Source: Phycisphaerae bacterium
GTDB taxonomy: Bacteria; Planctomycetota; Phycisphaerae; Sedimentisphaerales; Anaerobacaceae
Length of the DNA stretch: 64,000 nt
NCBI GenBank assembly: GCA_012744475.1
Contig: JAAYBV010000053.1
Span: 124,001 to 188,000, forward strand
Direction of reading: 5' to 3'
Shown: piece after piece, positions 10,132 to 20,236 of the stretch
How the letters are laid out: the number at the start of each line of letters is the position of its first letter
Position numbering within the stretch: the stretch's first letter is position 1
Made by a program: the position numbers and the translations under genes
Notes under the pieces: generated by a model
Seen by the model: the letters and a program-made list of their open reading frames with translations, nothing else
What the model was told of the DNA's origin: nothing
The model's database searches: none

Positions 10132-10221
10132 GCTCCCTGTTGTTTCCTTATGGGGACATTATGATTCGCATACCTCGGTCACGTGCTTTGGGGTAACGCA
10201 AGACTCTTTGGATGTACGGTA

Positions 10222-10839
10222 ATGGCCAACAGAAGCTGTATCATCAGGCTGTCCAGGTATAAGAACGCACTGAATCGTTTGAAGGCGCTGAACTTCGTGC
10301 GGGTGTTCTCCGACAACCTCGCGGATGCGGCCGGGGTGACCGCGGCACAAGTCCGGAAGGATTTCTCGCTTTTTGGCGTTACCGGGAACCGGCGAGGCGG
10401 GTATAAGGTGGACGAGTTGAGCGACCAGCTCAACAGCATCCTCGGCAAGGACCAGCTTCAGGAGGTTGTTGTCATCGGGATGGGCAATATCGGCAAGGCC
10501 CTTTTTCACTATGGGGGACTCGAAAAGAGCGGCATCCGGATCGCGGCCGGATTCGACATCGATCCGGTCAAGTTTGACAGACAGTCGCCCCAGCCTGTGC
10601 TGCCTCTGGAGGATCTCGTTAGTTTCGTAAAGGAGCGTAGCATTGCTCTGGGGGTTATTGCGGTGCCCGATTATGCGGCCCAGCAGGTGCTGGAGTTGAT
10701 GCTGTCGGCCGGAATCAGAGGCGTGCTGAACTTCGCGCCGATTTGTCTGAAGGCCCCCGAGGGCTGTATCGTCAACAACATCAATCTCGAAAGCGAACTT
10801 GAGAACCTGATCTATTTCATCAACGCCTCGGAAAAATGA
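10222..10839 (+). CDS. rex: Redox-sensing transcriptional repressor Rex
   Basis: A 205-residue NADH/NAD+-sensing repressor. An N-terminal winged helix (about 1-65, with AAGVTAAQVRKDFSLFG, the Rex DNA-binding signature) precedes a Rossmann domain with the nucleotide motif VVVIGMGNIGKAL, then the C-terminal domain-swap helix. Rex proteins release DNA when NADH rises and commonly control fermentation and hydrogenase genes; here rex heads the operon encoding an NAD-linked hydrogenase, which fits. The frame also has a GTG at 10183; I prefer the ATG at 10222 because Rex proteins usually begin close to this point, though neither start has a strong ribosome site. The stop overlaps the next gene (ATGA). 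Confidence 0.92.
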   Translation: MANRSCIIRLSRYKNALNRLKALNFVRVFSDNLADAAGVTAAQVRKDFSLFGVTGNRRGGYKVDELSDQLNSILGKDQLQEVVVIGMGNIGKALFHYGGLEKSGIRIAAGFDIDPVKFDRQSPQPVLPLEDLVSFVKERSIALGVIAVPDYAAQQVLELMLSAGIRGVLNFAPICLKAPEGCIVNNINLESELENLIYFINASEK

Positions 10840-12695
10840 CCAATAGCCAGATACTGCCGGCGGTATCCATCAAGACGAGGATCCTCTTCTCGTTTCTGGT
10901 GGTTATCCTCACGCTTTCGGTCTCGATCGCGTTGCTGGGGTACTACGTGACCAAGCGTGACATCTTCGAGCGGGCCGAACGAAAGGTCCTCAGTGACTTG
11001 AAGGTGGCTCACATGGTCTATACGGCCGAGATCGAGCGAATCGGCCAGGGGCTGCGTCTGGCGTCGCCGGATGGAGACATCGATGAGCTGCGGCGCAGGC
11101 TCGATCTGCATTACCTGCAATACGTTCCCGCGTCGGAGTTTGCGAATCTGCACAGCAGCCTGGCGCGAGCCGCGGCGACGGAAGGACGCGCCCTGGGCGG
11201 GACCCGTCTGGTCTCATCGGAGGAGCTGGACTCCATGCCCGGCGACCTTGCGGGCAAACGTCCCATCCCCGTCAAGGCGACTCCCATGGCCGGACCGACC
11301 GACCGCGAAGTGCTCAATCGCGCCATGGCCAAGGAGTATGCCGTCCCGAGAGTGAACGACGCGGGCGCCGTGGAAGGGGTCTTCTATGGGGGGCGCCTCA
11401 TCAATCGTGACTACACTTTTGTCGACCGCATCCGAGACACGGTGTATGGCAGGGAGTTGTACCGCGGCAAGCCCGTCGGCACGGTGACCATTTTCCAGGA
11501 CGACGTCAGGATCTCCACGAATGTGCTCGACGAGAACGGCCAGCGAGCCATCGGAACCCGGGTCTCCGAGCAGGTCTACAAGAAGGTGGTCGAGGAAGGG
11601 CAGGTCTGGCACGACCGGGCATTTGTGGTCACCGACTGGTACAAGACCGCCTACGAACCGATCCGGAACACGGAAGGCTCGGTCATCGGGGTTCTGTACG
11701 TGGGGACCCTCGAAGCGCCGTTCCACGACATGGCCCGGCAGATTCTGCTGATCTTCCTGGCGGCGGTGGGCGCGGTGACGCTCATCGCGGTGCTGTTTTC
11801 GTTTGTCCTGGCCGGCGCGATCTCGAAGCCGCTGACCCAGGTGGTTTATGCCAGTGAGTGCCTGGCCTCGGGCGACTGGGGCTGCCAGGTGAACACGAAG
11901 ACGTCCATCAAGGACATCAACAGCATGGCCGAGGCGTTCAACGCGATGGCGATCGGTCTGAAGGAACGGCAGGAGAGCCTGCGGGTCTCCAACGAGAAGC
12001 TCGCGGCCATGAACAAGAGCTACGTGGACCTGATCGGGTTCGTCGCCCACGAGCTCAAGGGCATCCTGGCCTCGGCGGTGATGAACGCCTACGCGGTACG
12101 GGACGGGTATCTGGGCATGGTCAACTTCAAGCAGCGCAAGGCTCTCGACTCGGTGACGCGAAACCTGGACTATCTCGACGCGACCGTCAAGAAGTTCCTG
12201 AACCTCGGACGCGTCGAGCGGGGCGAGCTCGACGTGCACAAGACCAAGCTGAGTCTGAGGAAGGATGTCTTCGACGTCTCGATCAACTCGCTGGCGGCGA
12301 TCTCGATGCGCAAGAAACTGAACATCGTCAATCAGATCGACCCGTCGCTGGATGTCCAGGCCGATGCCGATCTGCTGCAGATCGTAGCCAACAATCTCGT
12401 GGGCAACGCGATCAAGTACAGCCCGGACGCCGGACAGATCCGCGTCACCGCACGACAGGTCAATGGCAAGGTCGAAATCGACGTCTACAACGATTCGACG
12501 CCGATCAGCGCCGAACAGCGGGCCCGTCTGTTCCAGAAGTTTTCCCGTCTGGACAGCCCCGAGACGAAGAAGGTCAAAGGCACCGGACTGGGCCTGTACA
12601 TCACCAAGCAGATCATCGAGCGCCATGGTGGCAGCATCCGGGTCGAACCCCGAGAACACGGCAATTCGTTCGTATTCCAGATAGAAAGGAACTGA
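10836..12695 (+). CDS. Membrane sensor histidine kinase of the hydrogenase operon
   Basis: A 619-residue sensor kinase. One transmembrane helix (about 14-36) leads into a large periplasmic Cache-like sensor region (to about 300), a second helix (about 305-328), HAMP, a HisKA helix with phospho-acceptor His405 in FVAHELKG, and a HATPase domain with N-box NNLVGNAIKYS and G2 box KGTGLGLYI. The G1 box reads YNDSTPIS instead of DxGxG, so ATP binding may be altered. Its ATG overlaps the rex stop by 4 bases, so the two are translationally coupled. The natural partner is the receiver-only regulator at the far end of the operon (19850). The ligand is unknown. Confidence 0.85.
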   Translation: MTNSQILPAVSIKTRILFSFLVVILTLSVSIALLGYYVTKRDIFERAERKVLSDLKVAHMVYTAEIERIGQGLRLASPDGDIDELRRRLDLHYLQYVPASEFANLHSSLARAAATEGRALGGTRLVSSEELDSMPGDLAGKRPIPVKATPMAGPTDREVLNRAMAKEYAVPRVNDAGAVEGVFYGGRLINRDYTFVDRIRDTVYGRELYRGKPVGTVTIFQDDVRISTNVLDENGQRAIGTRVSEQVYKKVVEEGQVWHDRAFVVTDWYKTAYEPIRNTEGSVIGVLYVGTLEAPFHDMARQILLIFLAAVGAVTLIAVLFSFVLAGAISKPLTQVVYASECLASGDWGCQVNTKTSIKDINSMAEAFNAMAIGLKERQESLRVSNEKLAAMNKSYVDLIGFVAHELKGILASAVMNAYAVRDGYLGMVNFKQRKALDSVTRNLDYLDATVKKFLNLGRVERGELDVHKTKLSLRKDVFDVSINSLAAISMRKKLNIVNQIDPSLDVQADADLLQIVANNLVGNAIKYSPDAGQIRVTARQVNGKVEIDVYNDSTPISAEQRARLFQKFSRLDSPETKKVKGTGLGLYITKQIIERHGGSIRVEPREHGNSFVFQIERN

Positions 12696-12699
12696 CACA

Positions 12700-13056
12700 A
12701 TGCCGACTCCATTGGACCTCATCAAAAAGAAAAGGGCCGAGGCGGTCAGCCGGATCATCGGAAAGGGCTATCTCTCGACCAAACGCGTATACGTTGGGAT
12801 GGCTACCTGTGAGATCGCGGCCGGATCCAAGGACGTCATGGAGGTCTTTCAGAAAGCGATCAGCCGAGGTCTGACCGACATCTACCTCAGCCAGAAGGGC
12901 TGTGCCGGGCGATGCAACCTCGAACCGACCGTCGAGGTGATCGAAGCGGGCAAGACGCCCGTCAAGTACGGCAAGGTGGACAAGGACCGGGCGATGCAGA
13001 TCATCGAGCGACACCTCAAGAATGGCCAGGTCATTCAAGAGTGGGTCATTGACTAA
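12700..13056 (+). CDS. Small thioredoxin-like [2Fe-2S] ferredoxin
   Basis: A 118-residue electron carrier of the thioredoxin-like [2Fe-2S] fold that also forms the N-terminus of HydB and most of HydC. Cys37 (MATCEIAAGS), Cys68 and Cys72 (GCAGRC) are present, but the fold usually uses four cysteines and only three are seen. It sits 4 bp after the kinase gene and just before hydB, and is likely an accessory electron-transfer subunit of the hydrogenase. Such a small partner before hydB occurs in other HydABC-type operons. Confidence 0.8.
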   Translation: MPTPLDLIKKKRAEAVSRIIGKGYLSTKRVYVGMATCEIAAGSKDVMEVFQKAISRGLTDIYLSQKGCAGRCNLEPTVEVIEAGKTPVKYGKVDKDRAMQIIERHLKNGQVIQEWVID

Positions 13057-13072
13057 AGAAAGGGAACTGGCG

Positions 13073-14863
13073 GTGGCAACAACCTACAGAATCATTGTGT
13101 GTGACGGCACCACGTGCATCAACCGCGGGTCTCGCAATCTCATCTCGCGGCTGCGGGAGCAACTGGAGCGGCACGGTCTGGCGGACCGTTCGACCATCAG
13201 TCTTTCCGGCTGCCTCGGCATGTGCGACAAGGGCCCGATCTTGGTGGTCAATCCCGGCTATACCATATACGGAAACGTGACCGAAGCCGACATCCCCGAG
13301 ATCGTCGAGGAGCACCTGCTCCACAACCGGCCGGTGGCACGGCTGGCGATCCAGGAGGACCATCTCTACAACCGCTTCTTTCGGGTGTTCGGAGACGCCA
13401 AGTTCTTCGGCAAGCAGATGCGCATCACGCTGCGCAACTGCGGCATCATCGATCCCGAGAACATCGACAACTACCTGTCGCTTCGCGGCTATGAGGCGCT
13501 GGCCAGAGTCCTGACGGACATGACCCCGGAGTCGGTGGTGGCCGAAGTGGAGGCCTCCGGGCTACGCGGGCGGGGGGGCGCCGGCTTCCCAACCGGGATG
13601 AAGTGGAAGTTCACCGCCGCACAGAAAGCGACACCCAAATACGTGATCTGCAATGCCGACGAAGGCGACCCCGGTGCCTTCATGGACCGCAGCGCGATCG
13701 AAGGCGATCCTCACACAGTCGTCGAGGGTATGGCCATCGGCGGCTACGCCGTCGGGGCCAGCAAGGGGATCGTCTACATCCGGGCGGAATACCCGCTGGC
13801 CATCAAGCGGATTACCAAGGCCATCGAAGACGCACGGGCCCACGGGCTGCTCGGCGAGAACATCCTGGGCTCGAGCTTCTCGTTCGACATTGAAATCCGA
13901 CTCGGCGCCGGCGCCTTCGTCTGCGGAGAGGAGACCGCGCTGATCCACTCGATCGAAGGGACTCGCGGTATGCCTCGCCCGCGACCGCCGTATCCGTCGG
14001 TCCAGGGCCTGTTCGGCCTGCCTACGGTGATCAACAACGTCGAGACCTGGGCCAATATCCCCGTCATCATTCTCGACGGCGCCAAGTGGTTCCAGACGGT
14101 CGGGACCGAGACCAGCAAGGGGACGAAGGTCTTCGCGCTGGCGGGCAAGGTCGTCAACACGGGCCTGATCGAGGTGCCCATGGGCACCTCGCTGCGCGAG
14201 ATCATCTACGACGTCGGAGGGGGCATCCCGGGCGGAAAGAAGTTCAAGGCGGTGCAGACCGGCGGTCCTTCCGGCGGCTGCCTGCCCGAGCAGTACCTTG
14301 ACACGCCCATCGACTACGAATCGCTGGCCAAGGCCGGCTCGATCATGGGTTCCGGCGGCATGATCGTCATCGACGAGGACTCCTGCATGGTCGACATCGC
14401 CAAGTTCTTCCTGGAGTTCACGCAGAACGAATCGTGCGGCAAGTGCACGCCCTGCCGCGAAGGCACCAAGCGGATGCTCGAAATCCTCACGCGGATCACC
14501 GAAGGCAAAGGCCGGGCCGGCGACATCGAGAAGCTCGAACGGCTCGGCAACATGATCAAGAAGGCCTCGCTCTGCGGCCTGGGCCAGTCGGCGCCCAACC
14601 CCGTTCTGAGCACGATCAAGAATTTCCGCGAGGAATACGAAGAGCACATCCACCAGGGCAGGTGCCGGGCCCGCGTCTGCACGAATCTGGTGACCTACCA
14701 GATCACCGAGAAATGTGTCGGCTGCGGCGCCTGTCGCAAGGTCTGCCCGGTGGTGGCCATCTCCGGAACCGCGAAGAAGCAGCACGTCATCGATCAAGAC
14801 AAGTGCGTCAAGTGCGGCATGTGCTTCAACACGTGCAAGTTCGACGCCATTGTGAAGGTTTGA
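13073..14863 (+). CDS. hydB: NAD-linked [FeFe] hydrogenase beta subunit (NuoF-like, diaphorase)
   Basis: A 596-residue flavoprotein subunit that passes electrons between NAD(H), FMN and iron-sulfur clusters. Order of parts: N-terminal thioredoxin-like [2Fe-2S] domain (CDGTTC, CLGMC), NuoF-type FMN/NADH domain (GLRGRGGAGFPTG, NADEGDPGAF, GAGAFVCGEETAL), SLBB segment, SCGKCTPCREG cluster motif, and a C-terminal pair of [4Fe-4S] motifs (CVGCGACRKVC and CVKCGMCFNTC). This is the layout of HydB from electron-bifurcating hydrogenases such as that of Thermotoga. The chosen start is a GTG at 13073 with AGGGA upstream; the longer frame from 13022 overlaps the previous gene. Confidence 0.93.
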   Translation: MATTYRIIVCDGTTCINRGSRNLISRLREQLERHGLADRSTISLSGCLGMCDKGPILVVNPGYTIYGNVTEADIPEIVEEHLLHNRPVARLAIQEDHLYNRFFRVFGDAKFFGKQMRITLRNCGIIDPENIDNYLSLRGYEALARVLTDMTPESVVAEVEASGLRGRGGAGFPTGMKWKFTAAQKATPKYVICNADEGDPGAFMDRSAIEGDPHTVVEGMAIGGYAVGASKGIVYIRAEYPLAIKRITKAIEDARAHGLLGENILGSSFSFDIEIRLGAGAFVCGEETALIHSIEGTRGMPRPRPPYPSVQGLFGLPTVINNVETWANIPVIILDGAKWFQTVGTETSKGTKVFALAGKVVNTGLIEVPMGTSLREIIYDVGGGIPGGKKFKAVQTGGPSGGCLPEQYLDTPIDYESLAKAGSIMGSGGMIVIDEDSCMVDIAKFFLEFTQNESCGKCTPCREGTKRMLEILTRITEGKGRAGDIEKLERLGNMIKKASLCGLGQSAPNPVLSTIKNFREEYEEHIHQGRCRARVCTNLVTYQITEKCVGCGACRKVCPVVAISGTAKKQHVIDQDKCVKCGMCFNTCKFDAIVKV

Positions 14864-14872
14864 GGATTCCAC

Positions 14873-16651
14873 ATGGACAACAGCAAGATCACGATTGCGA
14901 TCAACGATCAGGAATACAAGGTCGATCCGGGCCAGACGATCATGCAGGCGGCCGACAAGTGCGGCTATCGCATTCCTCGGCTGTGCTATCACCCCAAGCT
15001 TTCCATCGAAGGCGCGTGCCGGGTGTGTATCGTTCAGGTCGAAGGCATCCGGAACTATGTGGCGTCGTGCGCCTACCCCGTGGCGAATGGCATGAAGATC
15101 TACACCAACACCCGGGAACTGCGCCAGGCCCGCCGGGACATCGTCGAACTGCTGCTGGACAATCACCCCCTGGACTGCCACACCTGCGATCGGGACGGCA
15201 ACTGCGAGTTGCAGCGTCTGGCCTACTCCATGGGCCTTCGTCAGCGGCATTTTGAGGGCGAGCGAAAGCAGTACGAGAAGGACCTGTCTTCGACCAGTGT
15301 GATTCGCGATCCGGACAAGTGCATTCTCTGTGGGCGCTGCGTTCGGATGTGCTCGGAGATTCAGGGCGTCCATTGCCTGACGCAGGCCCATCGCGGGTTC
15401 AACACGGTGGTCATGCCGGCGTACAACCAGCCGTTCGCCGAGAGCGTATGCACGGCGTGCGGCCAGTGTATCAACGTCTGTCCTACGGCGTCCTTTATCG
15501 AGAAGAACTACACCCAGGAGCTGTTCGAGAAGCTCAATGACCCCAACCTGATCACGGTCGCCCAGGTGGCCCCGTCCGTGCGCGCCGCCATCGGCGAGGC
15601 CTTCGGCCTGCCGCCGGGACGCAACATGGAAGGCCAGATTGTCGCGGCGCTGCGGCACATGGGCTTCAACTACATCTTCGACACCCAGTTCTCCGCCGAC
15701 CTGACCATCATGGAGGAGGCCAGCGAGTTTCTCGAACGCGTTCAGTCCAAGGGCCCGCTGCCCCTGATCACCTCCTGCTCCAGTGCGTGGATGAAGTACA
15801 TGGAGCAGTTCTATCCGGACCTGATCGAGAACATCTCGACGGCCAAGTCGCCGATGTCGATGGCCTCGGCGATGATCAAGACGTACTTCGCCGAGAAGAT
15901 CAAGGCCGATCCGAAGAGGATTCTCAGCGTGGCATTCATGTGCTGTACCGCCAAGAAATACGAGGCGGCCCGACCCGAGTTGAACGTCCGCGGCATGCGG
16001 GCGACCGACATCGTCATCACGACGCGCGAGCTGGCCTGGATGGTGAAGTCGTCGGGCATCGATTTCGTCAATATCAAGCCGGAGAAGTTCGACGAACCAC
16101 TGGGATTGTCCTCGGGCGCCGGGGCGATCTTTGGAGTGACCGGCGGTGTGATGGAGGCCGCGATCCGGACCGCCTACGAACTCTATACCGGGGAAACACT
16201 GATCGACATCGAGTTGACGGATATTCGCGGCTTCAAAGGGGTCAAGGAAGCCAAGGTGATGCTGGACGGCCAGGAGCTGCGTCTGGCGGTGGCCCACGGT
16301 CTGGGCAACGCCCACCAGGCGCTCGAAATGGTGCGGGCGGATCGCAGCCGGTTCCACTTCGTCGAGGTGATGGGTTGTCCCGGCGGGTGTATCGGTGGCG
16401 GCGGCCAGCCCTATCCGCTGGTCAACTCGCTCCCGCTGGACGAGGAAAGTCTCAAGCTGCGCGCGCAGGCATTGTACGGCCTCGACCGGGAGAAGACGAT
16501 TCGTCGCAGTCACGAGAACCCGGACGTTCAGAGGCTGTACAAGGAGTTTCTGGGGCGGCCGCTCAGCGAGAAATCGCACGAGCTGCTCCACACGCACTAC
16601 AAGCCGCACCTGCCCAAGGGCATCGTGTCGCCGAATCTGAAAGTCGTCTAA
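14873..16651 (+). CDS. hydA: [FeFe] hydrogenase catalytic subunit
   Basis: A 592-residue subunit that makes or oxidises H2 at the H-cluster. Clusters in order: plant-type [2Fe-2S] (Cys38, 49, 52, 66), His-ligated [4Fe-4S] (His98, Cys102, 105, 111), two [4Fe-4S] ferredoxin motifs (Cys150-160 and Cys193-203), then the H-cluster domain. The third loop is canonical (EVMGCPGGCIGGGGQP, Cys502 and Cys506). The first loop reads TSCSSAW (300-306) instead of TSCCPxW, and the second reads MCCTAKKYE (356-364) instead of MPCxxKxxE, so the usual ligand in loop 1 appears as Ser303 and there is an extra Cys357. The C-terminal small-subunit helix region is present. It starts 9 bp after hydB. Confidence 0.93.
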   Translation: MDNSKITIAINDQEYKVDPGQTIMQAADKCGYRIPRLCYHPKLSIEGACRVCIVQVEGIRNYVASCAYPVANGMKIYTNTRELRQARRDIVELLLDNHPLDCHTCDRDGNCELQRLAYSMGLRQRHFEGERKQYEKDLSSTSVIRDPDKCILCGRCVRMCSEIQGVHCLTQAHRGFNTVVMPAYNQPFAESVCTACGQCINVCPTASFIEKNYTQELFEKLNDPNLITVAQVAPSVRAAIGEAFGLPPGRNMEGQIVAALRHMGFNYIFDTQFSADLTIMEEASEFLERVQSKGPLPLITSCSSAWMKYMEQFYPDLIENISTAKSPMSMASAMIKTYFAEKIKADPKRILSVAFMCCTAKKYEAARPELNVRGMRATDIVITTRELAWMVKSSGIDFVNIKPEKFDEPLGLSSGAGAIFGVTGGVMEAAIRTAYELYTGETLIDIELTDIRGFKGVKEAKVMLDGQELRLAVAHGLGNAHQALEMVRADRSRFHFVEVMGCPGGCIGGGGQPYPLVNSLPLDEESLKLRAQALYGLDREKTIRRSHENPDVQRLYKEFLGRPLSEKSHELLHTHYKPHLPKGIVSPNLKVV

Positions 16652-16663
16652 GGGGGTGGTATT

Positions 16664-18187
16664 GTGACGACCGTGGTATGTAACCACTGTGAGCATACGA
16701 CGGCCCGCGTGGCCGATTGGGTTAAGAACCGGATCAAGCCGGAGCAGATCGAGAAGTATCTCGACCATGGGCGCTGCTTCATCGATACAGCAGCCATCGA
16801 GCAGGCCCTGAAAGCCAACGGCAAGCCCGATCCGCGAAGGGTCCGGGACATCCTTCAGAAGTCGCTGGCCATTGAGACACTGACGCCGGAGGAAACCGTC
16901 TGCCTGATCCACGTGGAGGATCCGGAGTTGCTGGCCGAGATGCGGCAGGCGGCTCAGGCCGTCAAGGTGAGAGTCTACGACAATCGCATCGTGACATTCG
17001 CCCCGCTGTATCTGGGTAATCTGTGCGTCAACAACTGCGCGTATTGCGGGTTCCGCAGCAGCAACCACTCGGAGCAGCGTCGCGTTCTGAGCCTGGACGA
17101 GGTGCGACGGGAGATCGAGGTGCTGGCCGGACAGATCGGCCACAAGCGACTGATCGTTGTTTACGGCGAGCACCCGGCCACCGACGTCCACTACATTGCC
17201 TCCACGCTTCGGACCATCGCGGATGTGAAGGTCAAGACGCGGTGCGGCTGGGGCCAGATCCGCCGGTGCAACGTCAACGCGGCTCCGATGTCGGTCGAGG
17301 AACTCGCGGTGCTCAATGAGGCCGGCATCGGCACGTTCCAGGTGTTTCAGGAGACGTACCATCGGCCGACGTATGAAAGGCTGCATCCGGCCGGGACGAT
17401 CAAGGGCAACTACCTCTGGCGACTCTACGCCATGCACCGCGCGATGGAGGCCGGCATCGACGACGTCGGCATCGGTCCGCTGCTCGGGCTGTACGACTGG
17501 CGATTCGAGGTCATGGCGCTGGTGTATCACGCCATCGAGCTGGAGAAGAAGTTCGGCATCGGTCCGCACACGATCTCGTTTCCACGGATCGAGCCGGCCC
17601 ACAATACGCCGCTGGCGCAGCATCCCGAGTATGCCGTCGACGACGACGAATTCAAGAAGCTGGTCACCGTCATCCGGCTGGCGGTGCCGTACACCGGGAT
17701 GATTCTCACGGCACGGGAGAACGCCCGGTTACGGCGGGAGGTCCTGCCACTGGGCTGCACCCAGACCGATGCGTCGAGCCGGATCGGCATCGGCGCCTAC
17801 GCCGACCTGGCCGATGGCGACCAGCAGGGCGATCGGCAGCAGTTCCTGTTGGGCGACACCCGTTCGCTCGACACGGTGGTCCGCGAGTTGGCCGAGGCCG
17901 GCTGCATCACCTCCTTCTGCACCGCCGGCTATCGCTGCGGGCGGACCGGGCAGAAGATCATGGGGCTGCTGCGGAGCGGCAAGGAAGGGCGATTCTGCAA
18001 GCTCAACGCCGTCATCACCTTCCGGGAATGGCTCGACGATTTCGGCAGCCCCGAGACGATCGCGGCCGGCGAGAAGGTGATCGCTGAGGAGATCCGGCAG
18101 GTCAGAGAGAAGATGCCGGAGATCTTCGATCAATTCATGCGCTACTACGATAAGACCCAGGCCGGCGACCGCGACCTGTATTTCTAA
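16664..18187 (+). CDS. hydG: [FeFe] hydrogenase maturase HydG (radical SAM tyrosine lyase)
   Basis: A 507-residue radical SAM enzyme that cleaves tyrosine to supply the CO and CN ligands of the H-cluster. The SAM-cluster motif is CVNNCAYC (Cys121, 125, 128). The C-terminal auxiliary-cluster region reads CTAGYRCGRTG (419-429) with Cys445 further on; the common form is CTACYR, so the second cysteine sits three residues later (Cys425). The GTG at 16664 follows AAGGGGGTGG and lies 12 bp after hydA. Placement between the hydrogenase subunits points to joint expression. Confidence 0.93.
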   Translation: MTTVVCNHCEHTTARVADWVKNRIKPEQIEKYLDHGRCFIDTAAIEQALKANGKPDPRRVRDILQKSLAIETLTPEETVCLIHVEDPELLAEMRQAAQAVKVRVYDNRIVTFAPLYLGNLCVNNCAYCGFRSSNHSEQRRVLSLDEVRREIEVLAGQIGHKRLIVVYGEHPATDVHYIASTLRTIADVKVKTRCGWGQIRRCNVNAAPMSVEELAVLNEAGIGTFQVFQETYHRPTYERLHPAGTIKGNYLWRLYAMHRAMEAGIDDVGIGPLLGLYDWRFEVMALVYHAIELEKKFGIGPHTISFPRIEPAHNTPLAQHPEYAVDDDEFKKLVTVIRLAVPYTGMILTARENARLRREVLPLGCTQTDASSRIGIGAYADLADGDQQGDRQQFLLGDTRSLDTVVRELAEAGCITSFCTAGYRCGRTGQKIMGLLRSGKEGRFCKLNAVITFREWLDDFGSPETIAAGEKVIAEEIRQVREKMPEIFDQFMRYYDKTQAGDRDLYF

Positions 18188-18212
18188 GATCGACTTGACG
18201 AGGACATTATAC

Positions 18213-18731
18213 ATGACAACGACCCAGGCGAATGACGCCATCGCGACCGATGATCAGAAACTCGCGCAATTGAAGGAATTCATCGCGCAGACGCAGAAGG
18301 ACGAGCATCCCGATTCGTTCCTGATTGCCGTCCTGCACAAGGCCCAGGAGCTCTACAGCTATCTTCCGGTCCCGGTGATGGACGAGATCGCCCAGGAAAT
18401 GGCGATTCCGACGGCGCACATCTGGGGTGTCGCGACGTTCTATCATTACTTCAACCTGACGCCGCCGGGGCAGCACGTGATCTCGATCTGTTTGGGGACC
18501 GCCTGCTACGTGCGCGGGGCCGCTCAGATTCTCCAGACGCTCCGCGACGAGTTGAAGATCGACATGGGCCAGGTGACACCGGACGGTCTGTTTTCTTTGC
18601 AGCCGGCTCGCTGCCTCGGCGCCTGCGGTCTGGCTCCGGTCGTCATGATCGACGACAAGATCCACGGGGAATTGACCCCCAAGAAGATGATCCAGATTCT
18701 CAACCAATACCGCAAGCAGGCCAAGAAGTAG
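18213..18731 (+). CDS. hydC: Hydrogenase gamma subunit (NuoE-like [2Fe-2S] protein)
   Basis: A 172-residue NuoE/HydC protein that completes the HydABC complex. An N-terminal helical bundle (HIWGVATFYHYF is typical) precedes a thioredoxin-like domain with four cluster cysteines: Cys93, Cys98, Cys134 and Cys138 (CLGTAC and CLGAC). The ATG at 18213 is preceded by GAGGAC; an in-frame TTG at 18195 would add six residues. The stop codon is followed directly by the hydE start. Confidence 0.92.
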   Translation: MTTTQANDAIATDDQKLAQLKEFIAQTQKDEHPDSFLIAVLHKAQELYSYLPVPVMDEIAQEMAIPTAHIWGVATFYHYFNLTPPGQHVISICLGTACYVRGAAQILQTLRDELKIDMGQVTPDGLFSLQPARCLGACGLAPVVMIDDKIHGELTPKKMIQILNQYRKQAKK

Positions 18732-19835
18732 ATGATGCTTTCGCGCACGCAGATGGTGTTGGAAAGGGTCTTCTCGTCCGACATTCCGGATCGGGCGGAC
18801 CTCGAGTTTCTGCTTCGCCTGGAGGACGACCGGCAGGTGCGGCTGTTGTTCGAATTCGCCGACCAGGTTCGCCGCCGGTACGTCGGCGACGGCGTGCTGC
18901 TGCGTGGGATCATCGAATTCTCGAACTTCTGTCGGAACGCTTGCGCGTATTGCGGGCTGCGGCGGCCCAACCGCCGGCTGAAGCGGTATCGACTTGCAGC
19001 GGCCGAGATTCTCGCAGCGGCGGAGAATATCCGGTCTGTGGGTGCGAAAACCGTTGTCCTCCAGAGCGGCGAGGAGGATAATCTCGACGCCGACTGGTTC
19101 GGGCGGATCATCGAACAGATCAAGACGCGGTTCGATGTGGCGGTGACGCTCTCCATGGGTGAACGTGGCCGCGAGGATTACGCGACGTGGAAGGACGCCG
19201 GAGCGGACCGATATCTGCTCAAGATCGAGACCTCCGACCCTGTGCTGTACGAGAATCTGCATCCCGGTATGAGTTTCGAGAACAGGACAAGATGCCTGGA
19301 GGATCTGGTGGACTTGGGATATCAGACCGGTTCCGGCAATCTCGTCGGTCTGCGTGGTCAGACCACCGAGAGCCTGGCTGGTGACATCCTGTTTTTCAAG
19401 AGGGGTGATTTCGACATGATCAGTGTCAGTCCGTTCATCCCCCATGCCGGGACGCCTCTGGCGACGGTTCCCGCCGGGGACCTGCGGACTACGCTGAAGA
19501 TGATCGCTCTGACGCGAATCGTGAGCCGGAACGCCCATATTCCCGCCAGCACCGCGATCGGATCGTTGAACGGGCGGGATGCCAGAGCGCAAGCCTTGGC
19601 CGTCGGCGCCAATGTGGTGATGCCCAATTTCACGCCGACGTCCGTGAGGCCGCTATACGAGATTTACCCCGGCAAGATCGGAGCCGAGACGCGGCCCGAT
19701 CAAAGCGTTGCGCAAGTGGAACAAATGGTCGCCGCCATAGGCCGGTTCGTCGATCTGGACACGGGCCACTCGTTGAAGTGCCGACCGACGGCAGGTCCGA
19801 CCATGACGCGAAGCAATTACGATTTTGCCAAGTGA
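18732..19835 (+). CDS. hydE: [FeFe] hydrogenase maturase HydE (radical SAM)
   Basis: A 367-residue radical SAM enzyme for H-cluster assembly. The SAM-cluster motif CRNACAYC uses Cys67, 71 and 74, within the HydE/BioB-like context EFSNFCRNACAYCGLR. Later blocks such as GLRGQTTESLAGDI, VSPFIPHAGTPL and NVVMPNFTP match HydE. It begins immediately after the hydC stop (TAGATG), indicating translational coupling. The third maturase, HydF, is not in this window. Confidence 0.92.
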   Translation: MMLSRTQMVLERVFSSDIPDRADLEFLLRLEDDRQVRLLFEFADQVRRRYVGDGVLLRGIIEFSNFCRNACAYCGLRRPNRRLKRYRLAAAEILAAAENIRSVGAKTVVLQSGEEDNLDADWFGRIIEQIKTRFDVAVTLSMGERGREDYATWKDAGADRYLLKIETSDPVLYENLHPGMSFENRTRCLEDLVDLGYQTGSGNLVGLRGQTTESLAGDILFFKRGDFDMISVSPFIPHAGTPLATVPAGDLRTTLKMIALTRIVSRNAHIPASTAIGSLNGRDARAQALAVGANVVMPNFTPTSVRPLYEIYPGKIGAETRPDQSVAQVEQMVAAIGRFVDLDTGHSLKCRPTAGPTMTRSNYDFAK

Positions 19836-19849
19836 AGGAGAAGTACGCG

Positions 19850-20236
19850 ATGGCGAAGAAGGTGCTGATGATTGATGATGATCCGGAATTTGTCGATGCG
19901 ATCTCGAACCTGCTCGACGCCAAGGGGTACGAGGTGCACACCGCTTCGAACGGCAAGGACGGCGTGGCGATGGCCAAGGCCGAGAACCCGGATATTATAC
20001 TGCTCGACGTGATGATGACGACCAAGCACGAGGGTTTCGACGTGGCGCGTGAGCTGCACGAGGACCCGACGGCCAAGGACACGCCGATTCTGATGATGAC
20101 GGGAATCCGCCGGGAGATGAATCTGCCGTTCGGTTTCGAGCCCGATGAGGCGTGGCTGCCGGTCAAGCAGGTCCTGGAGAAGCCCGTCAAGCCGGAAGTC
20201 CTGCTCAAGGCCATCGACGACCACATTCGCAAGTAG
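19850..20236 (+). CDS. Receiver-only response regulator
   Basis: A 128-residue CheY-like receiver domain with no output domain. The acidic pocket is Asp10/Asp11, the phospho-acceptor is Asp53 (IILLDVMM), and KPVKPE near the C-terminus carries the conserved lysine. Start follows GAAGGAGAAG; the gene is 14 bp after hydE, so it is the last gene of the hydrogenase operon. It is the likely partner of the kinase at 10836. With no DNA-binding domain, it must act by protein contact or as part of a phosphorelay. Confidence 0.88.
   Translation: MAKKVLMIDDDPEFVDAISNLLDAKGYEVHTASNGKDGVAMAKAENPDIILLDVMMTTKHEGFDVARELHEDPTAKDTPILMMTGIRREMNLPFGFEPDEAWLPVKQVLEKPVKPEVLLKAIDDHIRK

Follow-up and report, generated by a model that had tools for sequence, protein, structure and literature searches.

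We propose that the HydA protein encoded in a 64,000-nucleotide stretch of DNA from a Phycisphaerae bacterium (hereafter the window) would be the catalytic subunit of a working [FeFe] hydrogenase of the NADH- and ferredoxin-linked bifurcating type, in which Ser303 may act as the fourth ligand of the H-cluster cubane, Cys302 as the proton relay and Cys357 as a second-sphere residue. This proposal draws on the protein sequence, on conservation, on the pattern of switching between residues and on gene context, from which we infer the ligation and any tuning of the cubane potential; taken whole, we judge its chances to be even. A broader reading, which we hold tentatively and at somewhat less than even confidence, is that most bifurcating hydrogenases of the family would have a cubane ligated by a serine oxygen, gained and reversed several times, and that one clade (whose records bear the names of eight or more phyla) would add a cysteine beside C355 and mostly drop the second proline. 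Such an environment is absent from the solved A. woodii, T. kivui, CpI and D. desulfuricans sequences.

HydA scores above the cut-offs of the NCBIfam profiles for NADH-dependent group A6 (NF040763; 828.1 bits, cut-off 765) and for [FeFe] hydrogenase group A (TIGR02512; 499.1 bits, cut-off 405.95), and its Pfam domains are Fe_hyd_lg_C, Fe_hyd_SSU, Fer2_4 and NADH-G_4Fe-4S_3. An AlphaFold model of the protein (mean pLDDT 88.7; 85 at residues 301-310 and 96 at 351-360) matches the fold of CbA5H (Z 54.0 over 418 residues), CpI entries (Z 51.0-53.1), T. kivui HydABC (48.0) and A. woodii HydABC (47.9). Being cofactor-free, the predicted model confirms the fold only and cannot show ligation.

Features of the hyd locus in the window. 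Residue names are those of the window HydA, with CpI equivalents in brackets; the 105 related loci are defined in the text.
Feature	Positions	Strand	Basis or remark
rex, redox-sensing repressor	10183-10839	+	NF003996 226.2 bits, cut-off 138
sensor histidine kinase	10836-12695	+	profile; match in 33/105 related loci
118-aa ferredoxin-like protein ([2Fe-2S]), perhaps an additional subunit	12700-13056	+	match in 52/105 related loci
hydB, NuoF-like	13022-14863	+	[2Fe-2S] thioredoxin-like N-terminus, FMN-binding domain, C-terminal [4Fe-4S], GGPSG
hydA, catalytic subunit, 592 aa	14873-16651	+	NCBIfam NF040763, Pfam, structure model; N-terminal [2Fe-2S], NuoG-type Fe-S, 2x[4Fe-4S] region, H-domain, small-subunit-like tail
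loop L1, TSCSSAW, T300-W306	15770-15790	+	sequence, CpI alignment
C302 (CpI C299)	15776-15778	+	within L1
S303 (CpI C300)	15779-15781	+	within L1
A324 (CpI A321)	15842-15844	+	Ala in window HydA; Cys in 139/170 tree rows
loop L2, MCCTAKKYE, M356-E364	15938-15964	+	sequence, CpI alignment
C357 (CpI P354)	15941-15943	+	within L2
C358 (CpI C355)	15944-15946	+	within L2
loop L3, EVMGCPGGCIGGGGQP, ligand cysteines C502 and C506 both kept	16364-16411	+	sequence, CpI alignment
hydG, H-cluster radical SAM maturase	16664-18187	+	TIGR03955 431.5 bits, cut-off 312.15
hydC, NuoE/HoxE-like [2Fe-2S]	18195-18731	+	NCBIfam, Pfam profiles
hydE, H-cluster radical SAM maturase	18732-19835	+	TIGR03956 326.8 bits, cut-off 254.6
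single-domain response regulator	19778-20236	+	true start probably near 19850; match in 51/105 related loci

We compared the three H-cluster loops with those of the Clostridium pasteurianum enzyme CpI, in which we take C300, C355, C499 and C503 to be the cubane ligands and C299 to be the proton relay. Passages of a review likewise place Cys299 in the proton pathway (PMC11376134). The window protein departs from the group A motifs TSCCPxW in L1 and MPCxxKxxE in L2, the latter at a single position, and carries ExMxCxxGCxxGGGxP in L3. However, strict TSCCPxW does not bound group A, because the solved A. woodii HydA1 (TSCSPGW) departs from it as well. A preliminary description had placed Ser303 at an H-cluster ligand position, kept Cys302 as the proton relay and noted an extra Cys357 adjoining Cys358. 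The alignment bears this out: Ser303 falls on C300, Cys302 on C299 and Cys357 on P354 beside C355, and the residue numbering is correct. Loop 3, which had been called canonical, keeps its motif and both ligands (C502 is CpI C499 and C506 is CpI C503), but G501 replaces CpI A498.

The same description allowed for a shift of the alignment at the loops, and this part is not sustained. In all 30 HydA from a first search for relatives (the window's included) L1 and L2 lie 56 residues apart, as in CpI; therefore no insertion or deletion shifts the register there. The combined loop pattern matches once in the window and never in 100 shuffles, which speaks against a chance match. For a displaced register, in which Cys302 would be the cubane ligand and another group would relay protons, it can be said that Cys302 adjoins the site and is invariant. 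Against it, the spacing is constant and CpI position 299 is cysteine in Cys300 and Ser300 rows alike (170/170 rows of our tree), with E279, E282 and S319 equally fixed, and we consider such a register very improbable. Positions below follow CpI numbering unless assigned to the window, and HydA with Cys354 are called MCC HydA after their L2 loop.

The altered loops are no read error, because they recur in 16 other relatives' HydA and in 113 loci of a larger scan. The 30 relatives comprise 17 with TSCSSAW and MCC and 13 with TSCS[PS]GW and MPC. The larger scan (genome_contigs; 84,980 genomes) used the pattern T..C...W-N147-MCCxxKxxE with position 300 left free, so that it misses HydA of other L1-L2 spacing, and records very near the window's were possibly left out. 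It yielded 116 stretches, 113 of which hold HydA with the MCC loop (Ser300 in 104, Cys300 in 9); L076, L079 and L145 gave no match to the HydA pattern and were dropped. MCC records are named as Planctomycetota, Omnitrophota, Endomicrobia/Elusimicrobia, Armatimonadota, Margulisbacteria, Spirochaetales, Auribacterota, Raymondbacteria, Dependentiae and Bacillota; nearly all are MAGs, in which binning errors are possible, and the complete genome of Candidatus Velamenicoccus archaeovorus (G061) also carries an MCC HydA. In total we collected 318 loci, of which 313 gave 316 HydA-pattern matches and 283 distinct L1-L2 stretches. These are a non-random sample, chosen by the Cys354 pattern, by similarity to the window protein or by best NF040763 scores, and by residues 300/354 they fall into Ser/Pro (133), Ser/Cys (108), Cys/Pro (33) and Cys/Cys (9). 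Among the best 30 loci from the phylum to which G062, a Lachnospiraceae MAG, belongs, 30 of 31 HydA are Ser300/Pro354. Two loci, L062 and L085, each hold two hydA genes, one with TSCSPGW/MPC and one with TSCSSAW/MCC, a natural pair for comparison. Four HydA matches (G052:C11:5606-7378, G056:C30:26295-28055, G160:C483:2639-4342 and G068:C58:11475-13229) contain one internal stop each, which may reflect assembly errors or start-site effects.

The substitution C300S is common in bifurcating-type HydA and is already present in the PDB, in A. woodii HydA1. That some bifurcating hydrogenases share part of the altered loops had been anticipated, and this enzyme (7q4v) does so, with TSCSPGW beside a normal MPC. 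Within our non-random sample of bifurcating-type HydA, position 300 is Ser in 241 of the 283 distinct loop pairs and either Ser or Cys in all 283, never Ala, Gly, Thr or Asp, though the pattern left it free. Serine codons at this site are of both kinds in the Ser/Pro class (TCN 86, AGY 47) and TCN only in the Ser/Cys class (108); the use of both TCN and AGY argues that serine itself is kept. By parsimony, on trees built with the trait columns omitted, position 300 changed 8 times on the 170-row FastTrees and on the 108-row IQ-TREE, and 9 times on a FastTree of the H-domain only. In the same 170 rows the neighbouring positions vary (301 among Pro, Ser and Ala; 302 among Gly, Ala, Thr and Ser), while C299, C355, C499, C503, E279, E282, S319, M353, K358, F417 and M497 are invariant. 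A site where Cys and Ser replace only each other, beside three other invariant ligand cysteines, appears to behave as a metal ligand position would. Because position 300 is only ever Ser or Cys, changed at least eight times and has no consistent partner cysteine, serine there probably holds the fourth cubane site.

Clusters held by three cysteines occur in other proteins, and serine is a weaker ligand than cysteine. The cubane might thus be bound by three cysteines only, its fourth iron carrying water, hydroxide or nothing and Ser303 giving just a hydrogen bond. We regard this as unlikely, in view of the interchange with Cys alone and the lack of Ala, Gly, Thr or Asp at position 300 in 283 of 283 stretches. 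We also considered, as a general replacement ligand, the cysteine found at position 321 in many HydA (STCKSP), and rejected it: the window protein has Ala there, D. desulfuricans HydA has that Cys beside an intact TSCCPGW, and in the 8 independent pairs that differ at position 300 it changes in the same direction in 2.5 and in the opposite direction in 1.4 (average; a second analysis was similar). In 9 of the 92 Ser300/Pro354 rows position 321 is Ala, so that both candidate cysteines are absent.

By these comparisons of sequences, P354C is the unusual part of the window protein, a variant of one widespread clade that is separate from C300S and does not track it. In the 170-row tree all 51 rows with Cys354 lie in a single clade of 58, together with 7 Pro354 rows, and in the 108-row tree 18 Cys354 rows lie in one clade of 24 (SH-aLRT 96); both trees need five changes at position 354. 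Rows with Cys354 differ from Ser300/Pro354 rows at several further positions, namely Met325 (51/51 versus 13/92), Ser232 (51/51 versus 22/92), Gly498 (48/51 versus 6/92) and a residue other than Pro at 301 (43/51 versus 2/92). The link with Met325 may be mere descent, Met325 having changed once on the tree, and comparisons of 354 with 301, 302, 232 and 498 rest on only five independent pairs, too few for any of them to reach significance. Passages of one paper report that the proximal cyanide loses a hydrogen bond when Ser232 is lost (PMC12138974). In the seven MCC-clade rows with Pro354, residue 232 is Ala in L019, L181, L283 and L286 and Ser in L020-L022. As an origin of these rows, domain mosaics were considered and rejected for six of the seven (L019, L020, L022, L181, L283 and L286), whose nearest F-domain and H-domain neighbours share a clade.

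The preliminary description had given a swapped ligand as the alternative to a shifted alignment. In such a swap Cys357 would take the place of C300, and the adjacent residues 357 and 358 would bind the same cubane. Adjacent ligating cysteines are known from the CCG domain of HdrB, which offers a precedent; Ser300 occurs in 104 of the 113 MCC HydA, though these loci are related; and one member of the MCC clade, L181, has undergone a double change to Cys300 with Pro354, as a swap predicts. However, under a swap every loss of Cys300 should come with Cys354 and every retained Cys300 with Pro354, and the largest class is Ser300/Pro354 (133/283), while Cys300/Cys354 also exists (9/283). Of the 113 MCC loci, 9 retain C300 beside Cys354 (L049, L050, L052, L054, L105, L116, L124, L125 and L137). 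Position 354 also seldom changes with position 300. In 8 independent pairs that differ at 300 on the 170-row tree, 354 on average changed in the same direction in 1.2 and in the opposite direction in 0.1, and stayed unchanged in 6.6; the corresponding values are 1.1, 0.2 and 6.7 of 8 on the H-domain tree and 1.0, 0.2 and 4.8 of 6 on the 108-row tree. A weak coupling between 300 and 354 may be compatible with so few pairs. Two adjacent residues on one cubane would, moreover, be sterically unusual, and we think a swap unlikely.

Another role for Cys357 would be to guard the enzyme against oxygen or oxidation, through a reversible sulfur-iron contact or a disulfide, in the manner of CbA5H. Passages of two papers describe an H-cluster-binding cysteine that protects CbA5H (PMC8924675, PMC7820892). 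Also in its favour, Cys354 is kept in 51 of the 58 rows of the MCC clade. Against this, the acting cysteine in CbA5H is the proton-relay one, and nothing puts Cys357 at the distal iron; we consider this role improbable.

The window HydA is probably a working hydrogenase, because the pocket is conserved and the maturases are kept. Its proton path is intact: E279, E282, C299 and S319 are invariant in 170/170 rows, and R286 is Arg in 166 and Lys in 4. Its genome holds no other H-domain match, the two further matches covering residues 8-211 only. Sensory hydrogenases of groups C and D typically, though not strictly, have the proton-relay cysteine replaced and sensor domains attached; in the window protein Cys302 is kept and the attached domains are electron-transfer ones. 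We searched eleven genomes with MCC HydA, a chosen set and not a random one, and found a single PF02906 match (E <= 1e-20) in eight, Velamenicoccus included, and three matches each in G004, G036 and G054. HydG exceeds its cut-off in seven of the eight single-match genomes (eight of nine with the window genome added) and HydF in six of the eight; the HydF match of G991 lies under the cut-off (297.9). In the Spirochaetales MAG G066, whose sole H-domain match is an MCC HydA, HydF was not found at E <= 1e-60 and the HydG match stays under its threshold. In the window genome HydF scores 301.4 bits against a cut-off of 325.55 and contains the CxH...HCxxC pattern, which we take to be the HydF cluster motif.

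This divergent HydF (L319, G000:C46:233570-234766) lies on a different contig from the hyd cluster. Across the window genome and five others of its genus that were searched, HydF scores 272-304 bits (cut-off 325.55); in the same family, G007 and G010 reach 499.7 and 523.2 bits and four further members gave no HydF at E <= 1e-60.

That the gene is an artefact or a decayed pseudo-hydrogenase might be argued from its non-standard motifs, from G066 without HydF and HydG at threshold, and from passages of a Melainabacteria paper that contrast two TSCSPGW copies with one having 'all the necessary residues' (PMC3787301). The recurrence of the same loops in 16 of the other relatives and 113 scan loci, and the presence of this HydA as the sole H-domain enzyme, together with maturases, in the window genome and most others tested, make this extremely improbable.

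Gene context also fits a bifurcating hydrogenase. The order at the window locus is hydB-hydA-hydG-hydC-hydE, and the clustering of hydA and hydC with a hydB that carries 2Fe-2S, FMN and C-terminal 4Fe-4S sites is that of HydABC (HydDB group A3) and recurs in related loci. We took as related the 105 of the 116 scan loci that exceed 3,000 bases and have a HydA match above 500 bits. Among them, the nearest searched gene is hydB before hydA in 85 and hydC or hydG after it in 92; in nearly all of the remainder no searched gene was found on that flank. The 118-aa protein encoded upstream of hydB has NCBIfam matches far under cut-off and no match in a Pfam search; it may correspond to the additional small subunit that tetrameric Hnd-type enzymes have. 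HydB itself contains the GGPSG motif (...VQTGGPSGGC...), by which passages of one paper mark out beta subunits as putatively bifurcating (PMC7311640). The recurring histidine kinase and response regulator suggest a linked regulation beside Rex; their frequencies (33 and 51 of the 105 loci) are counts of matches, not of shown orthologues.

In the mechanism that we propose, C358, C502 and C506 would hold the cubane and Ser303 would fill the fourth position, most likely binding through its oxygen, as would also apply to the large group of enzymes with TSCSPGW, A. woodii HydA1 among them. Cys302 would stay the proton relay, and Cys357 would be a clade-specific second-sphere change, not a replacement ligand. 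C357 and S304 would stand in for two prolines next to cubane ligand positions; they would bring two additional backbone NH groups and a thiol close to the cubane and would probably retune its potential. The NH groups added with the loss of Pro301 and Pro354 may offset the drop in potential that oxygen ligation is expected to bring.

Changes of cubane ligands, for example Cys to His, shift the catalytic bias and raise the overpotential, according to passages of a review (PMC11376134). If serine is a true ligand, these enzymes would form a natural Cys/Ser series for testing cubane ligation against H-cluster potential and catalytic bias, and the MCC clade would add another natural variable next to that cubane. 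In the open literature searched, the loop strings of the MCC clade (MCCTAKK, TSCSSAW and TSCSSGW) are in no paper and TSCSPGW is printed in one relevant paper (PMC3787301); neither serine ligation of the cubane nor P354 is addressed in the passages retrieved. Screens that require TSCCPxW and MPCxxKxxE throw out such HydA sequences, and passages of one study describe the discarding of HytA homologues without the strict motifs (PMC6085437).

Among known systems, A. woodii HydA1 (HydABC; 7q4v, 7q4w, 8a5e) shares with the window protein the bifurcating type, Cys299, Ser300, C355, C499 and C503. It differs in having TSCSPGW and MPCTAKKYE, with Pro301, Pro354 and Cys321 where the window HydA has Ser301, Cys354 and Ala321. 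Passages of one paper describe the A. woodii enzyme as an isolated, H2-oxidising bifurcating hydrogenase (PMC6288185). T. kivui HydA1 (8a6t), also bifurcating, is the best PDB sequence match to the window HydA (592.7 bits), but its loops are the canonical TSCCPSW and MPCIGKKFE. CpI shares the fold, the L1-L2 spacing, the proton path and three of the four cubane cysteines; unlike the window protein, it has Cys300, Pro301 and Pro354 and is a monomeric ferredoxin enzyme. Also close are the HydA of the nine scan loci with TSCCPTW and MCC, which share Cys354 and, where tested, the same clade, but retain Cys300 and Pro301. Seven of these nine (L049, L050, L052, L054, L116, L124 and L125; Armatimonadota where the title is known) read MCCTCKK and have a further Cys at CpI 357, making three cysteines within four residues.
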